Assembly: GCA_017619355.1 (NCBI GenBank)
Contig: JAFZSO010000031.1
Coordinates: 1 to 42,792, forward strand
Reading direction: 5' to 3'
Source: Muribaculaceae bacterium
GTDB taxonomy: Bacteria; Bacteroidota; Bacteroidia; Bacteroidales; Muribaculaceae
DNA length: 42,792 bases
The notes below the pieces were generated by a model. The model made no database searches. It saw only the letters and a list, made by a program, of their open reading frames with translations, and had not been told where the DNA came from. Every line of letters starts with the position of its first letter. The stretch's first letter is position 1. Shown here one piece after another: positions 1,437 through 42,330 of this stretch. Made by a program: the position numbers and the translations under genes.

Positions 1437-1959
1437 CACTGCACAACTGCCCCCTAACAGCCTCACATTCATAGCGCTTGCCAACGAGTATTGTCAAGCC
1501 ATCGAGAACATACGAGAAATGGACCGCAACACCTTTGTGTCCACCATGCTCAAATTGTTGCCCAGACTCTATATCGTTGTCACCGATATGAACGACGGCA
1601 TAAGTGAAGCCAACACCGAAATGCAGTTTGCCCTCGACGAGCAGACTTACGACCATGCCCGCGAACTGATGAGTGCTGTGATGGGCGAAGCCGATGTGTA
1701 TCTTGAGGTATTTGAGGAGGACATGAAATACAGCGACACTCCCATCGCCGCAACGGTGAGTGAAAATCTTGCCGACCTCTATCAGGAATTCTTCAATCTG
1801 ATCTATTCAGTAAAAGACGCCGACACCGATGCACAGTTGCAACTGCTATTGCAATGCAAGGAGAATTTCAAAGAATACTGGGGCCAGACCCTGTGCAATG
1901 TGATGCGCGCCCTTCATGCCATTTCATGTGAAAACCTTGACACCGAAAACAATTATTAA
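1429..1959 (+). CDS. DUF5063 family protein
   Basis: A predicted soluble, mostly helical, acidic protein of 176 residues with no signal peptide or membrane segment. It resembles the DUF5063 proteins found in many Bacteroidales beside nadD; its biochemical role is unknown. The ATG at 1429 is chosen because the reading frame upstream of it lies inside nadD. With this start the gene overlaps the nadD end by eight bases, which fits the packed operon. The C-terminal part contains an aromatic and acidic stretch (NFKEYWGQTLCNVMRALH). The family assignment rests on recall of family sequences rather than on a diagnostic motif. Confidence 0.8.
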   Translation: MNNTAQLPPNSLTFIALANEYCQAIENIREMDRNTFVSTMLKLLPRLYIVVTDMNDGISEANTEMQFALDEQTYDHARELMSAVMGEADVYLEVFEEDMKYSDTPIAATVSENLADLYQEFFNLIYSVKDADTDAQLQLLLQCKENFKEYWGQTLCNVMRALHAISCENLDTENNY

Positions 1960-1972
1960 AAACGATATAACT

Positions 1973-3277
1973 ATGAATTCCAATCAAACGACAAAACAAA
2001 TCCAAACACTGCTCAATTTCATGAACATGAGCCCGTGCAACTTCTTGGCAATTAACCATATCAAGCAATTGCTGGAAACTGCTGGATTTCAAGAAAAGAA
2101 ACTTGAGAAACCTCTCGATGTAAAGAAAGGCGACAAATTCTATGTCACGAAAAATGATTCAGCCATTTTCGCCATAACCGTGGGCAGCAAGAAAATGCAC
2201 GAAACTGGTGTGAAAATTGTCTCAGCACACAGCGACTCGCCTGGTTTCCGCATCAAGCCACATGCCGAGATGAAGAGCGAAGGCAACATCATTCGCCTCA
2301 ACACCGAAGTGTATGGCGGGCCCATCCTCTACACTTGGTTCGACCGTCCGCTATCAGTTGCAGGCCGTGTGATTCTGCGTGGCAAAGATGCACTGCACCC
2401 AGTTACCAAACTGCTGAAAATAGACCGCCCGTTGCTTACCATCCCGCATCTGGCCATTCACTTCAACCGTGCCGTGAACGAAGGCAACAAACTTTCGAAG
2501 CAGAAAGACATGCTTCCCATCATTGCCAAGGTGAACAATGCGCTTGAAGCCGACAATATGCTCATGAACCTGGTAGCCAAAGAACTCAAAGTGAAAATCG
2601 AAGACATCTTGGATTTCGACCTCTTCCTCTATGATGTGCAGCCCGCATGCATCTTTGGAATCAATAACGAGTTCATCTCTTCAGGTCGGCTCGACGACTT
2701 GAGCATGGCGCAGGCAGCCATCGAGGCTATCACTAACGCCAAAGACAGCAAGGGCACCTGCGTGGCAGCCATCTTCGACAACGAGGAAACCGGCAGCGGT
2801 ACCAAGCAAGGTGCGGCTTCGCCTGTGCTTGCCAATGTGCTCATGCGTCTGAATGAAGCCATGGGCGGCAACTACGACACCTTCTGCCAAGCCATCGCCA
2901 AATCGTTCATGATTTCGGCCGACAATGCCCATGCCTTCCATCCTAATTATCCCGAGAAATATGACCCCACCAATCATCCCGTTCTGGGTGGTGGTCCCTG
3001 CATTAAGATTAACGCCAACTGCAAGTACATGTCTGATGCTCACTCGTCGGCCATCTTCCGTTCGTTGTGCGAAGATGCCGGAGTGCCTTTCCAGTATTTC
3101 GTGAATCACAGCGATGTGGCTGGCGGTTCAACTCTGGGCAACATCTTCACCGGCCAGGTCGACATTGAGGGCGTGGATGTGGGCAGTCCGCTGCTTGCCA
3201 TGCACTCGGCACGCGAGACTGCATCGGTTTCCGATCACCTGAACATGATTAAGGTTTTCAAGCAATTCTTCTCGTGA
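1973..3277 (+). CDS. M18 family aminopeptidase (aspartyl aminopeptidase type)
   Basis: Zinc aminopeptidase expected to remove acidic or other N-terminal residues from peptides in the cytosol. The M18 metal-binding blocks are visible: SAHSDSPGF with His86 and Asp88, DNEETGSGT with the Glu271-Glu272 pair, the DNAHAFHPNYPEKY segment, and HSDVAGGST with His379. The length is 434 residues from the ATG at 1973. That ATG is preferred because the upstream extension of the frame lies inside the previous gene and because the M18 N-terminus aligns there. It starts 13 bases after the DUF5063 stop, so it may be the last gene of the yicC-gmk-nadD unit. Confidence 0.95.
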   Translation: MNSNQTTKQIQTLLNFMNMSPCNFLAINHIKQLLETAGFQEKKLEKPLDVKKGDKFYVTKNDSAIFAITVGSKKMHETGVKIVSAHSDSPGFRIKPHAEMKSEGNIIRLNTEVYGGPILYTWFDRPLSVAGRVILRGKDALHPVTKLLKIDRPLLTIPHLAIHFNRAVNEGNKLSKQKDMLPIIAKVNNALEADNMLMNLVAKELKVKIEDILDFDLFLYDVQPACIFGINNEFISSGRLDDLSMAQAAIEAITNAKDSKGTCVAAIFDNEETGSGTKQGAASPVLANVLMRLNEAMGGNYDTFCQAIAKSFMISADNAHAFHPNYPEKYDPTNHPVLGGGPCIKINANCKYMSDAHSSAIFRSLCEDAGVPFQYFVNHSDVAGGSTLGNIFTGQVDIEGVDVGSPLLAMHSARETASVSDHLNMIKVFKQFFS

Positions 3278-33017: not shown

Positions 33018-35096
33018 ATGAGCAACGATAATGTGTTTTTTGCTCCCTTCACCCTCAATCACGGAGCCATTCCATTCAACCGCATCAGCAATGCACTCTT
33101 CGAGCCAGCAGTCACCGAGGCCATTAGCAGGCACAACAAGGAAATACAGCAAATCATCGACAATCCTGAGCCGCCCACATTCCTGAACACCGTCGTGGTT
33201 CTCGAGCGCAGCGGCGAGATGCTCTCACGCGTGCTCGGCGTCTTCTTCCCGCTTCTCTCGGCCAATGCCGACGATGAACTGCTCGCCATCTCCGAGCGGC
33301 TCATGCCCGTGCTCGATGCTCACTCCAACGAAATCACCCTCAACGAGCAACTCTGGCAGCGCATCAAGTGTGTCGACGAGCAGTTCGACCCCGAGCAGCA
33401 CTCTCCCGAAGATGCCATGCTGCTCAAGCGCACTCGCGATGCCTTCATCAACTGTGGCGCTGCACTGCCTGCCGACAAGAAGGAGCAATTCAAGCAGTTG
33501 TCAAAACGGCTGGCACAGCTGAAACTCAAATTTGAGCAGAACACCCTCAAAGAGATGGCGCGCCTGGAGCTGTGGCTCACTGCCCACGACCTCGAGAGGC
33601 TGCCTGAAAGTACCGTCGAGGCTGCCGCCATGGCCGCTAAAGCCAAAGGTCGCGAAGGCGAGTATCTCATCACACTGCGCGCCCCCAGCTATTCGCCTTT
33701 CATGAAATACTCCTCGCGTCGCGACTTGCGTGAAAAGCTTTATATGATGTACAACACGCAATGCACCGCTGGCGACTACGACAACACAGCCATCATTCAA
33801 GACATCGCCAACACGCGCCTCCAGATAGCCCAGCTGCTGGGCTATGAGTGCTATGCCGACTATCATCTGAAGGATATGATGGCCGAGAACAAGGAGAATG
33901 TGTTCAACCTCTTCAACCAGTTGCACGACGCCTATCTGCCCGCGCTCAACAGTGAGATGGAGGAACTCACCCATTTCGCTCAGCAGCGCGAAGGCAACGA
34001 CTTTGAGCTCAAGCCCTGGGACTATTCCTATTATGCCAATCTGCTCAAAGACCACAAGTTCCACTTCAACGACGAGCAGCTCCGTCCTTATTTCGAGCTC
34101 TCCAATGTCATCAATGGCGTCTTTGGCCTGGCCACCAGGCTCTACGGACTCCAATTCTCAAAAAACGAGGAGGCTCCCGTTTTCGACCCCGACATGCGCG
34201 TCTACGATGTCTACGACCGCAACCGCAAGTTCATCGGCCTGCTCTACACCGATTTCTATCCGCGCGAAACCAAGCAGAGCGGAGCCTGGATGACCGATTT
34301 CCGTGACCAGCACATCGACGCTCACGGCAACGATGTCCGCCCGGTGGTGTCGCTCACCATGAACTTCACCAAGCCCACCTCCTCCAAGCCATCGCTCCTC
34401 ACTTTGAACGAGGTGCGCACCTTCCTTCACGAGTTCGGCCATGCCCTGCACAGTCTGCTCACGCGTTGCCGTTATGCTTCACTGTCTGGCACCAGCGTCG
34501 AGCGTGATTTCGTCGAGATGCCCTCGCAGTTCCTCGAGAACTATCTCTACCAGCAGGAGTTCCTCAACAGTTTCGCCCGTCACTACATCACCGGCGAGTG
34601 CATTCCCGAAGACCTGCTTAAGCAGATCATCGACTCCAAGCGTTTCGGTGTAGCCTATGCTTGCTTCCGCCAGTTAGGTTTCGGGCGCATCGACATGGCT
34701 TGGCACACACTCACTGCGCCCTTCGAGGGCGACGTGTTTGCTTTCGAGGATGCTGCCGTCGACCCCGTGCGCATCTTCAAGCCCATTGAGGGTTGTGCCA
34801 TGTCACCCCAGTTCGGCCACATCTTCGCCGGAGGCTATGCTGCCGGCTACTATGGCTACAAGTGGGGCGAAATGCTCGAGGCCGATGCTTTCCAGCAATT
34901 CCTCGACGACGGTATCTTCAACCCCAAGACCGCACTGCGCCTCGAGCAAAACATCCTCACGCGTGGCGGCTCCGAGCATCCCATGACCCTCTACCGCCGT
35001 TTCCGTGGCGCCGAGCCCTCCATCCAGGCCCTCCTCCGCCGCGACGGCCTCACCCCCAGCCCCTTTAGGGGCGTGAGCGAACAGGCAGGGGCGTGA
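33018..35096 (+). CDS. M3 family oligopeptidase (Dcp/OpdA-like)
   Basis: Zinc metallopeptidase of the thimet-oligopeptidase group, 692 residues, expected to cut short peptides in the cytosol. The zinc site HEFGH is at residues 471-475 (LHEFGHALHSLL), and the glutamate ligand follows downstream in ERDFVEMPSQFLENY. The C-terminal block GGYAAGYYGYKWGEMLEADAF is typical. The last 15 or so residues (TPSPFRGVSEQAGA) do not look like family sequence. They are encoded by palindromes CCCC-TTTA-GGGG and CAGGGGC-GTGA-GCCCCTG that belong to the intergenic repeat family. The stop codon sits in the loop of the second one. Confidence 0.93.
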   Translation: MSNDNVFFAPFTLNHGAIPFNRISNALFEPAVTEAISRHNKEIQQIIDNPEPPTFLNTVVVLERSGEMLSRVLGVFFPLLSANADDELLAISERLMPVLDAHSNEITLNEQLWQRIKCVDEQFDPEQHSPEDAMLLKRTRDAFINCGAALPADKKEQFKQLSKRLAQLKLKFEQNTLKEMARLELWLTAHDLERLPESTVEAAAMAAKAKGREGEYLITLRAPSYSPFMKYSSRRDLREKLYMMYNTQCTAGDYDNTAIIQDIANTRLQIAQLLGYECYADYHLKDMMAENKENVFNLFNQLHDAYLPALNSEMEELTHFAQQREGNDFELKPWDYSYYANLLKDHKFHFNDEQLRPYFELSNVINGVFGLATRLYGLQFSKNEEAPVFDPDMRVYDVYDRNRKFIGLLYTDFYPRETKQSGAWMTDFRDQHIDAHGNDVRPVVSLTMNFTKPTSSKPSLLTLNEVRTFLHEFGHALHSLLTRCRYASLSGTSVERDFVEMPSQFLENYLYQQEFLNSFARHYITGECIPEDLLKQIIDSKRFGVAYACFRQLGFGRIDMAWHTLTAPFEGDVFAFEDAAVDPVRIFKPIEGCAMSPQFGHIFAGGYAAGYYGYKWGEMLEADAFQQFLDDGIFNPKTALRLEQNILTRGGSEHPMTLYRRFRGAEPSIQALLRRDGLTPSPFRGVSEQAGA

Positions 35097-35819: not shown

Positions 35820-38800
35820 ATGAAACATTCAAATCTTTTCAAATCATTACTGCTTGCTATTGCCCTGCTGTTAGGTTCTTTGCCAATAGCCGCACAGCAG
35901 ATGGTGAGCAACGACAATGACGATGAGGTCTATAAGGTAGAGCAATATGCTCCGAAATATCGACCTAATCAAGTCATCGTCAAGTTCAAGGAATCTTCCC
36001 CAGTGACTATCAAGAGCGACGCCAAGGGCAAATTTATGACCTCAAGCGTCAGTTCCATCGACAAGGTGATGAGCGAGATCGGCGTTCTAGAAGCGGAACA
36101 GCTTATGCCACTGACTGGTGCTATCAAGAACCGTGCACCACGCAAGGCAAAGGCACTTTCAGGCCGCGAAGTGATTGAACCCGACCTATCCAAACTCTAT
36201 TGCATGAAATTAGACTCAACTATTATGCAAAGAGTAGAAGATGTCGTGGAACGATTGAAAGCACTTGACGAAGTAGAATATGCCGAACCTAACTACCTCG
36301 CATTCATTCAATCCGTTGAAGATTCAACAGCCTATGTCAGTGAGCCTATGTACAGCCAGCAATGGGGGTTAGATGCCATCAATATGCCACAACTATGGGC
36401 AATGGAAAAAGTGGAGACAGAGCGCCCCGTTATCGCCATCCTCGATACAGGTGTGGATATCACACACCCTGACCTTACCGACAATATCTGGACAAATTCT
36501 CGTGAGGACAGTGGTGCTTCTTATGAAGATGATGACAACAACGGCTATGTTGATGACATTCACGGTTGGGACTTCATAGCTGGAACAGCTATTATCGGCA
36601 ATGGTATGGATCGCAATGGCCATGGCACTCACTGCGCAGGCATTGCCGCAGCAGTAGGTGACAATGAAATTGGCATCACTGGTGCCAACCCTGATGCATT
36701 GATTCTTCCCATCAAGGTGATGGGTGATGACGGCACAGGTGATATTGCTACTATCTGTCGTGGCATCGACTATGCAGTTGCCTGTGGTGCACATGTGCTG
36801 AGCATGAGTTTTGGTTCATCCATACCTTCCGCTGCTGAATATCAGGCATTATCAAAAGCCCTTACCAACTATGCTGTTATGGTTGGCGCTTCTGGTAATG
36901 CAGGCAGTAGTATTTATACACCGTATGGATGCTCTTATCCTGGAATGTACGATATTGTGATTGGGGTGATGGCTTCAGACACAGATGGTCAACGTGCGGT
37001 TTTCAGCAACTATGACCCTGATGGACCCTTCTTCTCCAAGTATAATATGAACAAGGCATTCTCAAGTGAAGTAACATGGAATGATGAGATGATGTGGAAC
37101 TATGACCTGATGGCTCCAGGTGTCAATATATTAAGCACTTACCTGAATGGTTCTTATAAAACACTTAATGGTACCTCCATGGCGACACCAATGGTGGCCG
37201 GTGCTATTTCACTTATTCTGCAAGTGAAAGGATATGATTATGCCCGTGATTATGGCCTGATGGGTGATATGGCGATTGCTAAGGATGGCGGCTTGACCGA
37301 CCTCGCAGTATTCAATGCTTATCAAGCTGCCAGTTTTGATGAAACCAATCGTCAAGTGGCACTTGCCCTTATCTCTTTAGAGATTGACGATAGTGAGGGT
37401 GAGGGTGATGGTGACGGCAGGTTTGATGCTGGAGAGAACATCAGCATCTGGCCTACTATCCGCAGCCTTTGGGGGCACGCAGAGAATATCAAGATTGCAA
37501 TAGAGCCATACGATGAGAACACTCCAACTGATGCCATTGAAATACTTGACAACAATGTAGACTTCGGTTGGTCGCTTAATAGCCGTGGATCATTTAAGAG
37601 CAAAAATCCCATCCGTGTGCATGTTAACGAAAATGCATACGATGGCATGCACCTTCCCTACAAAATTGTTATTACCAGCGACAATCTTCTTGCTGGCATT
37701 GAGCAAGAACATGTCTTTGAAGTGGAAAATGGTGTGGAGCTTGGCGGTGTCATCAATGAAGACATGACACTTTATCCAAACAAGCACTACATCGCCACCA
37801 AGAGTATCGCTATCCCCCAAGGCAAGACTCTCACCATTATGCCCGGCACTCGCTTGGAGTTCAATGAGGGATGCTGCATCCAAAGCGATGGCAAGCTTAT
37901 CGCCAACGGCAACCCCGACTCACTCATCGTATTCACCAGCCGCGACCCTGAGAAACCTTGGGGTGGAATCCGCTCGCATTTTAGTTCCAGCGACAACCCC
38001 TGTGACACCATTGCTTATTGTTTCCTTGTGTATGTCAATTATGGCGGTTATTATCCTTGCCTGTACATAAAGAATTGCATTTTGGACAAAATGAACGAAA
38101 GGACTGGTGGCAACTATTGGATTATGCATGAAGGAGCAGGTTTTGACGGTATGTATAACAATTTCCTGAACTCATACTCATATTATAATGGATGCATGAA
38201 GAGAAGTAACTCCCTGTTTTACAGTAATTTTATCAACTTCAGAAATAGAGAAGATATCCCCAACAGCTGGCAATACTCGCAACTTGCGAGTAGCAACTTG
38301 ATTCAGAGTGGAAGTGACAATGAATGGAGCAATTTGCCATTGATGGTTGTGGGTCGTGACAACGGCATCACCATCGACCATGCCGAGTGGCCCTCATGGC
38401 TCGGGACAAGCAAGGAGGAGATAATCAGACCTTACATATACGACAGCAAGAACCCGCTTTTGGATTGCTTCACGACGGTGGATTTAAGCAATATGCCAAC
38501 CCGACCCTATAAAGAAGCCCATGGCATAGTTTGGAAAGTGATGGTTGATGGCTATGATGCTCAGGATGAGTTTGACCAACTGCCGCCGCTTGGTGTTGGT
38601 CGCCACAAATTTGAGGTCTATTATAATCGTGATGATATCGACACCACCTTTACACCAACAGTGTCAATGGGCTTCAGAGAGCCTTACACCCAAACCCCAA
38701 TTAACAAAGATGGTTTCTGGTGTGCAAAAGACAGTGCAAGTGTTTACACTGTATTCTTGGATATTACTGGAAAGACAAATTGTGATGGTCTTAACCGCAT

Positions 38801-39935
38801 CAAGGTGACAGGAGGCAAAGACCATGACCACTTTGATGTACCTGATGAATACTGGCGATTCAACGTCTTTGTTCAAGCTGCAGGCTCTATGGCTACTGGC
38901 TTTGCTGCCGAGGCTGGTCTTGGCAAGGTAAACCTCACCTGGAACAACGAGAACAACGATTTTGAAGACGCCATGGGCTTCAATGTCTATCGCTATTCAG
39001 AAGAAGAGAAACTTATGCCCGTTTATGACGAATGGGGCAACGAAGTTTGGGAAGAAGATGAGAATGGCTACTGGGTACCTAAGTTAGAAATGCAGACAGT
39101 TAGAGATACTGTCCGCCTTAACGAGATGATTCTTGACCTTGATACTGACCAGTTCACAGACTATGAAGTAACTCCTGGCAAAGTATATTACTACTATTAC
39201 AAGGTGCTGAGTACCGACCTGAAGGAATATGACATCAGCAATGTGGTGGCTGCCAGCCCGCTCACCAGTGTGCTGGGCGATGCGAATGCCAGCGGTGAGG
39301 TGGATGTCGCCGATGTAATCACCACGGTGAACTATGCCGCCGGTATGGAACCGCGCCCCTTCCTCTTCGAGGCGGCGGATGTGAATATGGACCAAGACAT
39401 TGATATCCTCGATGTGATTGGCATTATCAAGCTAATCACCAACCCCAATGCCAATGTTACTGCCATGGCAGAGGCGGAGGCCATCTACAGCGTGGAGAAC
39501 GGCGTGGTCTATGTCGACTGCCCCGTGGAACTGGCTGGCGTTCAGGTAATGCTTAATGCTAACCCCGATGCCACCATCACGCCTACCGAGGACTTGAACG
39601 GCTTTGAGAAGGTGAGCGCTTGGCTAGCCGATAACCAGTATTTGTTCATGGCCTACAATATGGCGGGCCGCACCATTCCTGCCGGCAAGCACGCCCTGCT
39701 CAGCATTGGCGATGCTTCCATCAGCGACATTCGCCTCGCCGACAAGCAAGGTCACAACGTGCGCGCCTATATGGCTACCCCCACGGTCATAGATGTGATT
39801 CCCGCCGACCGCACCGTGCGCCACTCGGGCATCTACGACCTCATGGGCCGCAAGATTGCCGACAATGCCGATGCCCTGCGCACCCTGCAACCCGGCATCT
39901 ACATCGTCAACGGCCAAAAAGTGGTCAAAAAATAG
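35820..39935 (+). CDS. Secreted S8 subtilisin-like protease with dockerin, cohesin-like half-module and T9SS-like tail
   Basis: A 1371-residue exported protease. Signal sequence MKHSNLFKSLLLAIALLLG is followed by a prodomain-like region (about residues 40-170) that ends VEYAEPNYLAF. The catalytic domain has Asp209 in VIAILDTGVDITHPDL, His268 in NGHGTHCAGIAA, Asn360 in ASGNAGSS and Ser453 in GTSMATPMVAGA, so it is predicted active. After a beta-rich region that includes a parallel-beta-like stretch (near residues 640-740) and a fibronectin-III-like module (about 1020-1145), a type I dockerin has calcium loops at 1154-1165 and 1187-1198. A cohesin-like half-module follows (about 1222-1320). The last 35 residues, ending QPGIYIVNGQKVVKK, look like a type IX sorting signal. 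Its upstream three quarters is more AT-rich than the dockerin end. Its likely partner is the cohesin-like protein downstream. Confidence 0.9.
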   Translation: MKHSNLFKSLLLAIALLLGSLPIAAQQMVSNDNDDEVYKVEQYAPKYRPNQVIVKFKESSPVTIKSDAKGKFMTSSVSSIDKVMSEIGVLEAEQLMPLTGAIKNRAPRKAKALSGREVIEPDLSKLYCMKLDSTIMQRVEDVVERLKALDEVEYAEPNYLAFIQSVEDSTAYVSEPMYSQQWGLDAINMPQLWAMEKVETERPVIAILDTGVDITHPDLTDNIWTNSREDSGASYEDDDNNGYVDDIHGWDFIAGTAIIGNGMDRNGHGTHCAGIAAAVGDNEIGITGANPDALILPIKVMGDDGTGDIATICRGIDYAVACGAHVLSMSFGSSIPSAAEYQALSKALTNYAVMVGASGNAGSSIYTPYGCSYPGMYDIVIGVMASDTDGQRAVFSNYDPDGPFFSKYNMNKAFSSEVTWNDEMMWNYDLMAPGVNILSTYLNGSYKTLNGTSMATPMVAGAISLILQVKGYDYARDYGLMGDMAIAKDGGLTDLAVFNAYQAASFDETNRQVALALISLEIDDSEGEGDGDGRFDAGENISIWPTIRSLWGHAENIKIAIEPYDENTPTDAIEILDNNVDFGWSLNSRGSFKSKNPIRVHVNENAYDGMHLPYKIVITSDNLLAGIEQEHVFEVENGVELGGVINEDMTLYPNKHYIATKSIAIPQGKTLTIMPGTRLEFNEGCCIQSDGKLIANGNPDSLIVFTSRDPEKPWGGIRSHFSSSDNPCDTIAYCFLVYVNYGGYYPCLYIKNCILDKMNERTGGNYWIMHEGAGFDGMYNNFLNSYSYYNGCMKRSNSLFYSNFINFRNREDIPNSWQYSQLASSNLIQSGSDNEWSNLPLMVVGRDNGITIDHAEWPSWLGTSKEEIIRPYIYDSKNPLLDCFTTVDLSNMPTRPYKEAHGIVWKVMVDGYDAQDEFDQLPPLGVGRHKFEVYYNRDDIDTTFTPTVSMGFREPYTQTPINKDGFWCAKDSASVYTVFLDITGKTNCDGLNRIKVTGGKDHDHFDVPDEYWRFNVFVQAAGSMATGFAAEAGLGKVNLTWNNENNDFEDAMGFNVYRYSEEEKLMPVYDEWGNEVWEEDENGYWVPKLEMQTVRDTVRLNEMILDLDTDQFTDYEVTPGKVYYYYYKVLSTDLKEYDISNVVAASPLTSVLGDANASGEVDVADVITTVNYAAGMEPRPFLFEAADVNMDQDIDILDVIGIIKLITNPNANVTAMAEAEAIYSVENGVVYVDCPVELAGVQVMLNANPDATITPTEDLNGFEKVSAWLADNQYLFMAYNMAGRTIPAGKHALLSIGDASISDIRLADKQGHNVRAYMATPTVIDVIPADRTVRHSGIYDLMGRKIADNADALRTLQPGIYIVNGQKVVKK

Positions 39936-39943
39936 TTTATTAA

Positions 39944-40018
39944 ACACGAATTGCCATGAATTTCCCATAAATTAATAATAATTCGTGGTTAATTTGTGGT
40001 AATTCGTGTAAAATTTTT
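39944..40018 (+). terminator. Long imperfect inverted repeat after the protease gene
   Basis: ACACGAATTGCCATGAATT (39944-39962) pairs imperfectly (16 of 19) with the reverse of 39991-40009, and is followed by TTTTT. It may terminate protease transcription. It uses the same ATTCATGG/ATTCGTGG words as the decamers at 35271-35313. Confidence 0.5.
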
Positions 40019-40045
40019 GTAGGGACAGGGCGTGCCCTGTCCGCC
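40019..40045. repeat. 27-bp dispersed palindromic repeat, copy 2
   Basis: Identical over 27 bases to 8290-8316, with the stem GGACAGGGC/GCCCTGTCC. A further short palindrome CCCC-GTCA-GGGG (40049-40060) follows at once. Confidence 0.8.
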
Positions 40046-40090
40046 AAACCCCGTCAGGGGCGACAGATAATAATTAAATAAGGTTTGCTC

Positions 40091-40230
40091 TTGCGTCAAA
40101 AGAAATTTGTTCTTATGTTCTTCTGTCTAAAATACTATTTTGCGTCAAAGGAAATATGTTCTTATGTTCTTCTGTCTAAAATACTATTTTGCGTCAAAAG
40201 AAATTTGTTCTTATGTTCTTCTGTCTAAAA
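40091..40230. repeat. 49-bp tandem repeat, almost three copies
   Basis: Units at 40091-40139, 40140-40188 and 40189-40230 begin TTGCGTCAAAAG and contain TTCTTATGTTCTTCTGTCT. The first two differ at only two positions; the third matches for 42 bases and then diverges. The array ends 33 bases upstream of the scaffold start codon. The unit lacks palindromic structure and there are no unique spacers, so it is not a CRISPR array. Confidence 0.9.
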
Positions 40231-40263
40231 CAATTATGTTCTTGTGTCAAATAATAAAGAACA

Positions 40264-42330
40264 ATGAAATATAAATTTTTATTCATCATATTTGCTCTTC
40301 TGTCTATCCTTGCCCGCGCCGCCAATGTGGTCACCCTCCCCACCGTCAACGGCTCCCCTGGCGATGAGGTGACCCTGAGCATCAGCCTCGACAACACTGA
40401 TGCCGTGAGCGCCATGCAACTGCACATCCCCATTACTGGCGACATCAGCGTGGTGGCGGGCAGCGAGACCCTCGGCAGCCGTGCCACCGACCACAGTGCT
40501 ACAGTGGGCATCAACGGCGGCACGCTGGTGGTGATGGTGTGGTCGATGAACTTCACGCCCTTCACTGGCAGCAGCGGCGAGGTGCTCTCGTTCCGCATTC
40601 TGCTCGGCAACGAGCCAGGTTCAGTAGACCTTGTTGCTAACAAAGTCACCCTCACCGACACCGACGGCAACACCCTCGATGCCTCAGCCACCAGCGGCTC
40701 GGTGACCATCAGCGCCCCCAAGGCCCAGCTTGCCACGCGCGATATAGACTATGGGCACATCCCCATTCGTGATGTCTATCACCGATCGCTGCAGGTGACC
40801 AACGTGGGCACTGCCCCTTTGGTTATCAGCGGCATCGAGCCAAGCGCCTCCGAGTTCTCGAGTGAGACCGTGTTCCTTTACGTCATCGAAGCTGGCAATA
40901 CGGGCACTGTGGATATCACCTACAGCCCTGTGGAGCGTGGAGCGATAGAGGAAACCATCCGCCTGCTGAGCAACAATATTGCGGGCACTAACACCATTCG
41001 CATTGTTGCCGACCCCTTTGCCGTAAACGAGCTTCATGTGGAGAACGCCAGCGGCATTGCTGACAGCACAGTGACCATCCCCCTGCGGGTGAATAACATG
41101 GATGCCATTAGCGGTTTCCAGTTCGAGTTCGACCTGCCCGAGCAACTACAGTATGTAGATGGCTCATTTACCTTGAGCAACCGAAAGGCAGATCATCAGT
41201 TGGTAGTGACCTGCATGGGTCAGCACCTCACCGCCATCGCCTACACCATGGGCAGCGGCACCTTCAGTGGCGAGGATGGCGTGATTGCCACCTTCGATGT
41301 GCTGCTCAGCGGCCGCTATGGCACGGAACTGCGCGCCAGCAAGGCAAAACTTACTGCCACTTACAAAGGGGTTGACATGGATGTGCTCAGCGACCACTAT
41401 GGCGGCTGGATCGACATTGCCAGTCCGCAACTCAATGCTACCGACCAGCTTGATTTGGGCGCAACCCCAGTCACCGAGAATGCCGAGGGCACAGTAACCG
41501 TCTATAATGGCGGCGGTGCCCCGCTACGCATCGACCGTGTGGTCTTTGATGCCGAGGGCTTCAGCATCAGCGAGGCTTGCCCGCTGGTGATTGAGCCTTG
41601 GAGCAGCATCGACCTCCATGTGACCTTTATCGGACAGGAGGAAGTACCCTTCGAGGCACTGATGCAGCTCTACAGCAACGACCCCGACCATCGCCTGCAC
41701 AACATCACCGTCACCGGCTCCCGCTTCGCCCCCAACTACCTCTTCTTCACTGCCGACGATGCCTACCAAGGCGATGATGTATTGGTGCATCTCAACATGA
41801 GCAACTACGACCCCATCAACGGTATCCAGTTCGACCTCGACTATCCCGCCAACTGCGTAGAAGCACCTGCAGAGTTTGAGCCGACTGAACGGGCACAGGG
41901 CTTCACGATGATGTGGCGCGACTTGAGTGGCGGCAAGGCCCGACTCTTCATCTACTCGCTCACCGATAATGTAATTGCTACTGGCGAAGGCGAGATTGCC
42001 ACCCTGCGTTTTGCCATGAAGCAAGATGTAGCGCTGGGGCAATATTCGTTCAGCGCCACCGAAATCAGCATGGGTGTGGCAAATCTCACCGACAAGTATG
42101 CCGGTACCGACCAGGAATGCGCGTTTGAAGTGATCGAGAAAACCGGACTTCCTGGCGATGCCAACGATGATGGTAGAGTGGATGTGAACGATGTTACCAC
42201 CACCATCAACTACATTTTAGGCAAGAACCCCAGTCCATTCAACTTTGCGAATGCTGATGTGAACAACTCTGGCGACGTGAACGTGATGGATGTGACTCTC
42301 ATCATCAACATCATCCTCGGCATAGAGTAA
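40264..42330 (+). CDS. Secreted scaffold-like protein: three cohesin-like modules, two ASH-like modules and a C-terminal dockerin
   Basis: A 688-residue exported protein. Signal sequence MKYKFLFIIFALLSILARA is followed by repeating modules: cohesin-like 1 (about 22-150), ASH-like 1 (154-250), cohesin-like 2 (256-387), ASH-like 2 (389-487), cohesin-like 3 (492-626) and a type I dockerin (630-688). The cohesin-like modules share the start pattern (D)xVTxxxxLxNxDAxSxxQ, as in DNTDAVSAMQLHI, NNMDAISGFQFEF and SNYDPINGIQFDL. The dockerin has two calcium loops, GDANDDGRVDVND and ADVNNSGDVNVMD. The ASH-like modules have the NxGxAPL pattern (NVGTAPLVISG, NGGGAPLRIDR). No T9SS-like tail is present. 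It resembles a small scaffoldin able to bind dockerin proteins and to be docked itself. Its neighbour is the dockerin protease. Confidence 0.85.
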   Translation: MKYKFLFIIFALLSILARAANVVTLPTVNGSPGDEVTLSISLDNTDAVSAMQLHIPITGDISVVAGSETLGSRATDHSATVGINGGTLVVMVWSMNFTPFTGSSGEVLSFRILLGNEPGSVDLVANKVTLTDTDGNTLDASATSGSVTISAPKAQLATRDIDYGHIPIRDVYHRSLQVTNVGTAPLVISGIEPSASEFSSETVFLYVIEAGNTGTVDITYSPVERGAIEETIRLLSNNIAGTNTIRIVADPFAVNELHVENASGIADSTVTIPLRVNNMDAISGFQFEFDLPEQLQYVDGSFTLSNRKADHQLVVTCMGQHLTAIAYTMGSGTFSGEDGVIATFDVLLSGRYGTELRASKAKLTATYKGVDMDVLSDHYGGWIDIASPQLNATDQLDLGATPVTENAEGTVTVYNGGGAPLRIDRVVFDAEGFSISEACPLVIEPWSSIDLHVTFIGQEEVPFEALMQLYSNDPDHRLHNITVTGSRFAPNYLFFTADDAYQGDDVLVHLNMSNYDPINGIQFDLDYPANCVEAPAEFEPTERAQGFTMMWRDLSGGKARLFIYSLTDNVIATGEGEIATLRFAMKQDVALGQYSFSATEISMGVANLTDKYAGTDQECAFEVIEKTGLPGDANDDGRVDVNDVTTTINYILGKNPSPFNFANADVNNSGDVNVMDVTLIINIILGIE

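Follow-up and report, generated by a model that had tools for sequence, protein, structure and literature searches.

A subtilase and a cohesin scaffold as a probable anchor-scaffold pair of a cohesin-dockerin system in gut Bacteroidales

The DNA stretch analysed here (the window) is contig JAFZSO010000031.1, 42,792 nt long, from the Muribaculaceae bacterium assembly GCA_017619355.1. This genome, referred to below as G000 (2.63 Mb in 74 contigs, 89% complete), belongs to a gut genus of Muribaculaceae-like Bacteroidales. On the plus strand of the window, two adjoining genes encode an S8 protease with an internal dockerin (35820..39935) and a secreted scaffold protein with three cohesins and a terminal dockerin (40264..42330). 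Judged from sequence comparisons, the locus is probably one of several anchor-scaffold pairs of a genome-wide system of cohesin-dockerin assemblies at the cell surface.

The protease gene and the scaffold gene

The protease open reading frame (ORF; 1371 aa) comprises a signal peptide, a prodomain, a subtilase catalytic domain (36426..37229; Pfam PF00082, Peptidase_S8, 151.2 bits), a middle region, the dockerin (39273..39440, residues 1152-1207), a cryptic cohesin module (39462..39779, residues about 1215-1320) and a divergent tail resembling type A of the type IX secretion system (T9SS; 39822..39932). The motifs DTGV, HGTHCAG and GTSMA, at residues 209, 268 and 451, identify the protein as a subtilase, with D209, H268 and S453 as what we take to be the catalytic triad. 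The initial annotation of this DNA, made from the sequence alone, had described an S8 protease with a type I dockerin; its ORF coordinates are right, and the two calcium loops lie exactly where it placed them, at residues 1154-1165 and 1187-1198. Both loops are present and conserved, and a loose double-EF-hand pattern, applied to the six frames of the window, matches solely at the protease and scaffold dockerins. The module between dockerin and tail had been missed; it takes a cohesin fold in the predicted structure, with the cohesin of OlpC as best fold match.

The scaffold (688 aa) is arranged as Coh-ASH-Coh-ASH-Coh-Doc. Its cohesins, which the genus profile A1 described below detects, lie at 40324..40713, 41026..41403 and 41734..42141, and the second is the most conserved of the three. 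Between them lie two ASH or choice-of-anchor-D Ig-like modules, at 40717..41010 (PF15780, NF012200) and 41416..41715 (Pfam and NCBIfam profiles), and the dockerin closes the protein at 42151..42324 (residues 630-685). A secreted neighbour with three cohesins, alternating ASH modules and a dockerin of its own had been proposed, and each of these families now scores above its Pfam cut-off: cohesin (PF00963) with 65.6 bits over three stretches (cut-off 24.1), ASH with 65.8 bits over two stretches (cut-off 27) and dockerin (PF00404) with 43.1 bits (cut-off 22.9). The same check with PF00963 and PF00404 had been advised for both proteins; the protease dockerin reaches 19.1 bits when scanned alone with hmmscan, below the cut-off of 22.9 for PF00404 (Dockerin_1), and 25.1 bits together with its frame neighbours in the genome search. 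No family of carbohydrate-binding module (CBM) was found on the scaffold in the Pfam scan, which a divergent one could escape.

Orthologs of the protease occur at four further loci (L213, as two ORFs; L214; L216; L182, partial), and the protease-scaffold pair is kept in 4/4 relatives with readable upstream sequence, two of the genes being split. The splits affect the protease gene at L213:4246-8666 and the scaffold gene at L216:6985-9038, each broken into two ORFs by a true break or an assembly error. The gap between the two genes measures 328 nt in the window, as against 46 to 88 nt in four relatives and 6 to 157 nt over 25 anchor-scaffold pairs, and it contains a tandem repeat of 49 bp (40091..40230; 2.9 copies, 95% matches). 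The scaffold is also found in four named records of metagenome-assembled genomes (MAGs), labelled Muribaculaceae (two), Bacteroidales and Porphyromonadaceae, one of them from roe deer rumen; the letters RUG in the names of the remaining scaffold-carrying MAG records presumably stand for rumen as well.

Cohesins and dockerins in the genome, the genus and the order

A survey of the genome for further dockerin proteins, which the initial annotation had recommended, gives 140 matches to PF00404 at E<=1 and 131 at E<=1e-6 in G000. These fall in at least 136 ORFs, a lower bound based on 150 scored candidates of 255. Of the 131 ORFs whose stop codon lies inside the retrieved sequence, 123 end no more than 7 residues from the match, and half of the eight exceptions are anchors discussed below. 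Two classes can be distinguished: 36 matches with a P-x-P-F/Y linker (class A), which include the scaffold dockerin and, as an outlier, the protease dockerin, and 104 others (class B), many of them nearly alike. Among the 125 complete dockerin ORFs outside the window (31 of class A and 94 of class B, with nine open or short ORFs omitted), a hydrophobic N-terminus was detected by a crude test in 118 (28 and 90, respectively) and a lipobox in four (one and three), so that more than 100 dockerin proteins of G000 are probably secreted, as far as their sequences tell. Similar repertoires occur in 13 other members of the genus, with 68 to 143 dockerins each, and in four more genomes with 31 to 88, all of these counts being lower bounds. 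The dockerin model, applied to 14 control genomes, finds matches at E<=1 in nine of them (two above the cut-off) and none at E<=1e-6.

From the perspective of the cargo, Pfam families (E<=1e-5) on these 125 ORFs are led by LRR_5 (40), followed by DUF285 (13), peptidase C10 (11), the Spi inhibitor I69 (11), peptidase M6 (6), phosphodiester glycosidase (at least 5), GHL10 (4), alpha-amylase (at least 3), CotH (at least 3), GH16 (at least 2) and S8 (at least 1). ORFs in which no second family was recognised are not counted in this tally and may contain unknown enzymes. By its sequence families, the recognised cargo is adhesin-like, of the BspA type with leucine-rich repeats (LRRs), and proteolytic rather than cellulolytic. 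The organisation agrees with that of a cellulosome, in that a single secreted scaffold without catalytic domain bears several cohesins and the dockerins are carried by separate proteins. A plain cellulosome is rejected on the recognised cargo, which includes few carbohydrate-active enzymes (CAZymes) and does not consist mainly of enzymes of plant cell wall degradation, as that of a cellulosome would.

Detection of the cohesins depends strongly on the profile. PF00963 alone yields in G000 two modules of the window and two weak places, and it was replaced by a profile built from 68 cohesin modules of the genus (A1). Compared with the PDB, A1 finds 11 sequences at E values from 1e-6 to 7e-3, comprising cohesins of the scaffoldin and anchoring types, one from an archaeon and the cohesin-like module of NagJ. 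In G000 it detects 11 modules in seven ORFs, besides the cryptic module of the protease. Cohesins are present in 60 of the 61 sampled genomes of the genus (G000 included) according to A1 (E 1e-6), versus 33 according to Pfam (E 1e-3), and 26 of the 27 genomes that lacked a Pfam cohesin and contributed no row to A1 are positive. Across 198 genomes of the order, 16 carry A1 cohesins, 40 carry dockerins (E 1e-6) and 13 carry both, a co-occurrence with a hypergeometric probability of 5.6e-8 if kinship is ignored. A member of another Bacteroidales family (G027; L184, C25) encodes neighbouring proteins with eight and five cohesins. On this sequence evidence, cohesins do exist in dockerin-rich Bacteroidales of this genus.

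These data bear on an alternative in which cohesins and dockerins act singly, as calcium-stabilised folds or as binders of glycans or surfaces, and the dockerins of Bacteroidales have no partners. Non-cellulosomal cohesins and dockerins are reportedly known, in work ascribed to Peer et al. 2009, and this would count in its favour. So would the rumen surveys that found dockerins of Bacteroidetes without cohesins: the accessible sections of a 2020 rumen catalogue describe such dockerins without recognisable cohesins, state that most rumen dockerin proteins have no CAZyme domain, and leave the role of Bacteroidetes dockerins unclear, the cohesins being either unneeded or too distant to recognise (PMC7260996), and a 2023 cattle survey, in its available portion, reports dockerins without cohesins in Muribaculaceae C941 and takes the absence to indicate non-amylosomal use of starch (PMC9863278). 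The organisms concerned are possibly of the same kind as the present genus, in which, in contrast to what the available parts of both surveys report, nearly every sampled genome is found to contain cohesins. As a fitting profile reveals cohesins, and these co-occur with dockerins, a purely solitary role appears quite improbable.

All seven cohesin ORFs of G000 fit one pattern, with a single exception to its pairing: an anchor of the form Doc-Coh-tail or Coh-Doc-Coh-tail precedes a secreted Coh(n)-Doc protein encoded on the same strand. The pairs are C44 (that of the window), C65 and C67, the scaffold of the last with half a dockerin only; the exception to the pairing is C56 (L163), where two Doc-Coh-tail anchors adjoin without a scaffold gene. 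The same pairing was found in 18/18 regions of other genomes, a biased sample chosen for closely spaced cohesin matches, with n equal to 1 in 15 of them, 2 in two and 6 in one. The suggestion of a scaffoldin-like system in Bacteroidales, first made in the initial annotation, gains from the retention of the protease-scaffold pair in the relatives and from the large set of dockerin ORFs, peptidases included. As to variants, scaffolds with six cohesins and a dockerin adjoin Doc-Coh-tail anchors in L266 and L183 (G058 and G011), and the small Coh-Doc adaptors of L252, L262 and L046 continue C-terminally into a further domain, which on visual inspection is like the formylglycine-generating enzyme.

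Dockerin dialects, module conservation and the proposed wiring

Dockerins of the two locations, terminal and internal, differ in their relation to the cargo of the same genome. Terminal dockerins, on scaffolds and adaptors (n=17), are closer to the cargo of their own genome than to that of 15 others, with an excess identity of 0.103 that none of 5000 permutations reached; the internal dockerins of anchors (n=20) show an excess of 0.004 (p = 0.29) and, as a set, follow no dialect. In these tests each genome's cargo is represented by 2 to 8 dockerins, those with the highest scores; G017, G058 and G003, whose cargo sequences were wanting, and the half-dockerins of two-cohesin scaffolds (G000 C67, G011, G003) are omitted, and the permutation test leaves out the rows of G000. 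In a ranking comparison, 5/5 internal and 2/9 terminal dockerins with rank 1 come from G000, whose rows ranked first too easily, since they could match either of its two cargo classes; two of the five internal ones, those of the C56 anchors, do have a real likeness to G000 cargo. Dialect following by scaffold dockerins would be expected if they and the cargo shared partners, and it speaks further against cohesins and dockerins that act singly.

Conservation also differs among modules. With 89% identity between five species, the dockerin has the highest value of the protease segments compared; the catalytic domain and the cohesin module reach 72% and 67%. In the scaffold the values are 76% for Coh2, 73 to 75% for ASH1, 69% for ASH2, 62% for Coh1, 53% for Coh3 and 49% for the terminal dockerin. 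Anchors of the Coh-Doc-Coh type (G000 C65 and G004 left out) show the same preference, their internal dockerin (61%) exceeding both of their cohesins (46 and 53%) and the cohesin (52%) and dockerin (47%) of the adaptor. Identity correlates with that of the terminal dockerin for Coh1 (r 0.58) and Coh3 (0.60), for ASH1 at 0.44, and least for Coh2 (0.21) and ASH2 (0.06). In a tree of the cohesins, Coh1, Coh2 and Coh3 of the scaffold each form one clade across the five species (supports 100/99, 99/96 and 100/100), as if each site had a lasting role of its own; this is the one result drawn from that tree, which has few columns and long branches and in which the cohesins of small adaptors are labelled AncN.

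The protease looks more like an anchor than an ordinary dockerin cargo enzyme, because it has a cohesin-fold module of its own, its dockerin is near-invariant, and that dockerin belongs to the anchor-internal set that follows no dialect. For the same reasons, the earlier idea that the protease is gathered as a dockerin enzyme is not upheld. According to that idea, the protease would plug its dockerin into any scaffold cohesin, and the dockerin of the scaffold would keep the latter at the surface; the presence of a protease dockerin next to scaffold cohesins, and of dockerins on other peptidases, agrees with it. Against it stand the T9SS-like tail and cohesin of the protease, a dockerin that stays constant while the cargo dialect shifts between species, and the old, separate lineages of Coh1, Coh2 and Coh3 where interchangeable sites would be expected, and we regard it as quite unlikely.

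In the arrangement that we favour, the protease, like the other anchors, would be exported by the T9SS, fixed at the surface by its tail and present its cohesin there. Its conserved dockerin would form a private link within the gene pair, and the variable Coh1 and Coh3, together with the cohesins of the anchors, would take up cargo through its dialect dockerins and in this way gather adhesin-like LRR proteins, C10 and M6 peptidases and some glycosidases at the surface. The terminal dockerin of the scaffold would plug into other cohesins and thereby extend or link assemblies, and it is possible that the scaffold itself is held in this way. That the private link runs from the protease dockerin to Coh2 of the adjoining scaffold, as the sequence comparison might suggest, is proposed tentatively, because Coh2 hardly stands out from ASH1. 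The internal dockerin could instead bind the neighbouring cohesin of the same chain and form a structural unit beside the T9SS-like tail, so that the protease would have no contact with the scaffold through this dockerin and the pair would be linked otherwise, for example by the protease cohesin and the scaffold dockerin. The dockerin does adjoin a cohesin in the anchors examined, the protease included, and is their most conserved module, outside the cargo dialect as a set; the protease cohesin, however, is far less conserved than its dockerin and falls below even Coh2 of the scaffold. Such a lock in cis is the main alternative to a link with Coh2, though a doubtful one. A docked pose is visible for neither option because the protease dockerin is modelled at low confidence.

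Export was considered through the tails and the secretion machinery. SprA, the one T9SS component searched for, is present in G000 (TIGR04189, 2728 bits). The tail model TIGR04183, applied to nine other anchor tails, gives 22.1 and 22.2 bits for two of them and 38.3 bits for the G027 scaffoldin, the eight-cohesin protein, whose T9SS tail is complete; the rest give no match. Export by the T9SS is only inferred, because the tails lie mostly below the Pfam and NCBIfam cut-offs and the model also matches in 13 of the 14 control genomes at E<=1. A further thought is that the dockerin could act as a second-hand tag for secretion, so that tail-less proteins bind the cohesins of T9SS-tailed anchors in the periplasm and cross the SprA pore together with them. 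This is a speculative and rather unlikely proposal; were it true, one genome would have given up individual T9SS tails for well over 100 dockerins and a few proteins that carry cohesins.

Several observations weigh against the favoured interpretation as a whole. The protease tail stays below the TIGR04183 cut-off (14.0 bits, E 0.037, cut-off 23), so that of the T9SS-like tail claimed initially the likeness stands, in that it resembles by eye the L201 tail, which passes the cut-off, and the profile match is weak; nothing in the findings explains how tail-less cargo and scaffold pass the outer membrane. The cohesins detected are few, 11 for at least 136 dockerins. Three of the 16 cohesin-positive genomes of the order (G084, G141, G205) have no dockerin at E 1e-6, and no A1 cohesin was found in the dockerin-rich genomes G157 (at least 29) and G259 (at least 14 dockerins at E 1e-6). 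The unpaired C56 anchors carry internal dockerins of cargo classes A and B, 71-72% identical to cargo of G000. Coh2 barely exceeds ASH1 in conservation, the correlation of Coh1 and Coh3 with the dialect is based on 15 non-independent pairs, and the structure model of the protease module has a pLDDT (predicted local distance difference test) of only 61 overall, with the dockerin part below 50. As for G157 and G259, their dockerin matches, among those listed, mostly start at profile position 8 or later, and they perhaps represent another dockerin type with other partners.

Relation to known assemblies

Cellulosomes and amylosomes are built from a scaffoldin with cohesins, enzymes with dockerins, and anchoring and adaptor scaffoldins. 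With the clostridial and ruminococcal cellulosomes and amylosomes, the present system shares a secreted, non-catalytic scaffold that bears several cohesins and a dockerin, C-terminal dockerins on dozens to hundreds of proteins, cohesin anchors and small Coh-Doc adaptors, and the likeness extends to OlpC, whose cohesin is the best match to the fold of the protease module. It differs from them in its Gram-negative Bacteroidales host, in T9SS-like tails in place of SLH (S-layer homology) or sortase anchors, in a recognised cargo mostly of BspA-LRR proteins and C10 and M6 peptidases with few CAZymes and no CBM found in the scaffold, and in that the anchor is itself a protease and the genes of anchor and scaffold are paired.

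Closer in some respects is Candidatus Stygibacter (Cloacimonadota), for which the available part of the report infers a scaffoldin whose cohesins stand in tandem and whose C-terminal domain is of the T9SS type, together with peptidases (S8/S53, C25) and glycosidases that carry dockerins at their C-termini (PMC8542988). There, in contrast, a single scaffoldin of 3,755 aa carries CBMs and few dockerin proteins are named, and anchor-scaffold gene pairs and internal Doc-Coh anchors are not among the features described in that part (PMC8542988). Dockerins greatly outnumber cohesins in Ruminococcus albus and R. bromii too, according to the accessible text of a further study (PMC6118326). These species are Gram-positive and have a single anchoring cohesin or an amylosome. 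To our knowledge, neither has a T9SS.

Among surveys, one restricts cohesins to Firmicutes_A bins in the portion available (PMC9177762), and two others mention, in theirs, some Bacteroidetes cohesins in metagenomes (PMC6071333; PMC4035507). No description of a cohesin-dockerin anchor-scaffold gene pair in Bacteroidales was found in the accessible portions of the open-licence literature. Cohesin-dockerin assemblies are known already, and the anchor-scaffold variant of Bacteroidales appears to be new. With cohesins at hand, the question raised in 2020 about the partners of Bacteroidetes dockerins becomes directly testable by means of the profile and the gene pairs. The system would extend large surface assemblies, classic in Gram-positives, to a Gram-negative gut genus, where protein and adhesion, not cellulose, are the likely theme, and its natural cohesin-dockerin dialects could be used for work on binding specificity.

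Elsewhere in the window, two further peptidases are encoded, an M18 aminopeptidase (1916-3277) and an M3 oligopeptidase (33018-35096), and the remaining genes scanned have the appearance of housekeeping and transport functions.

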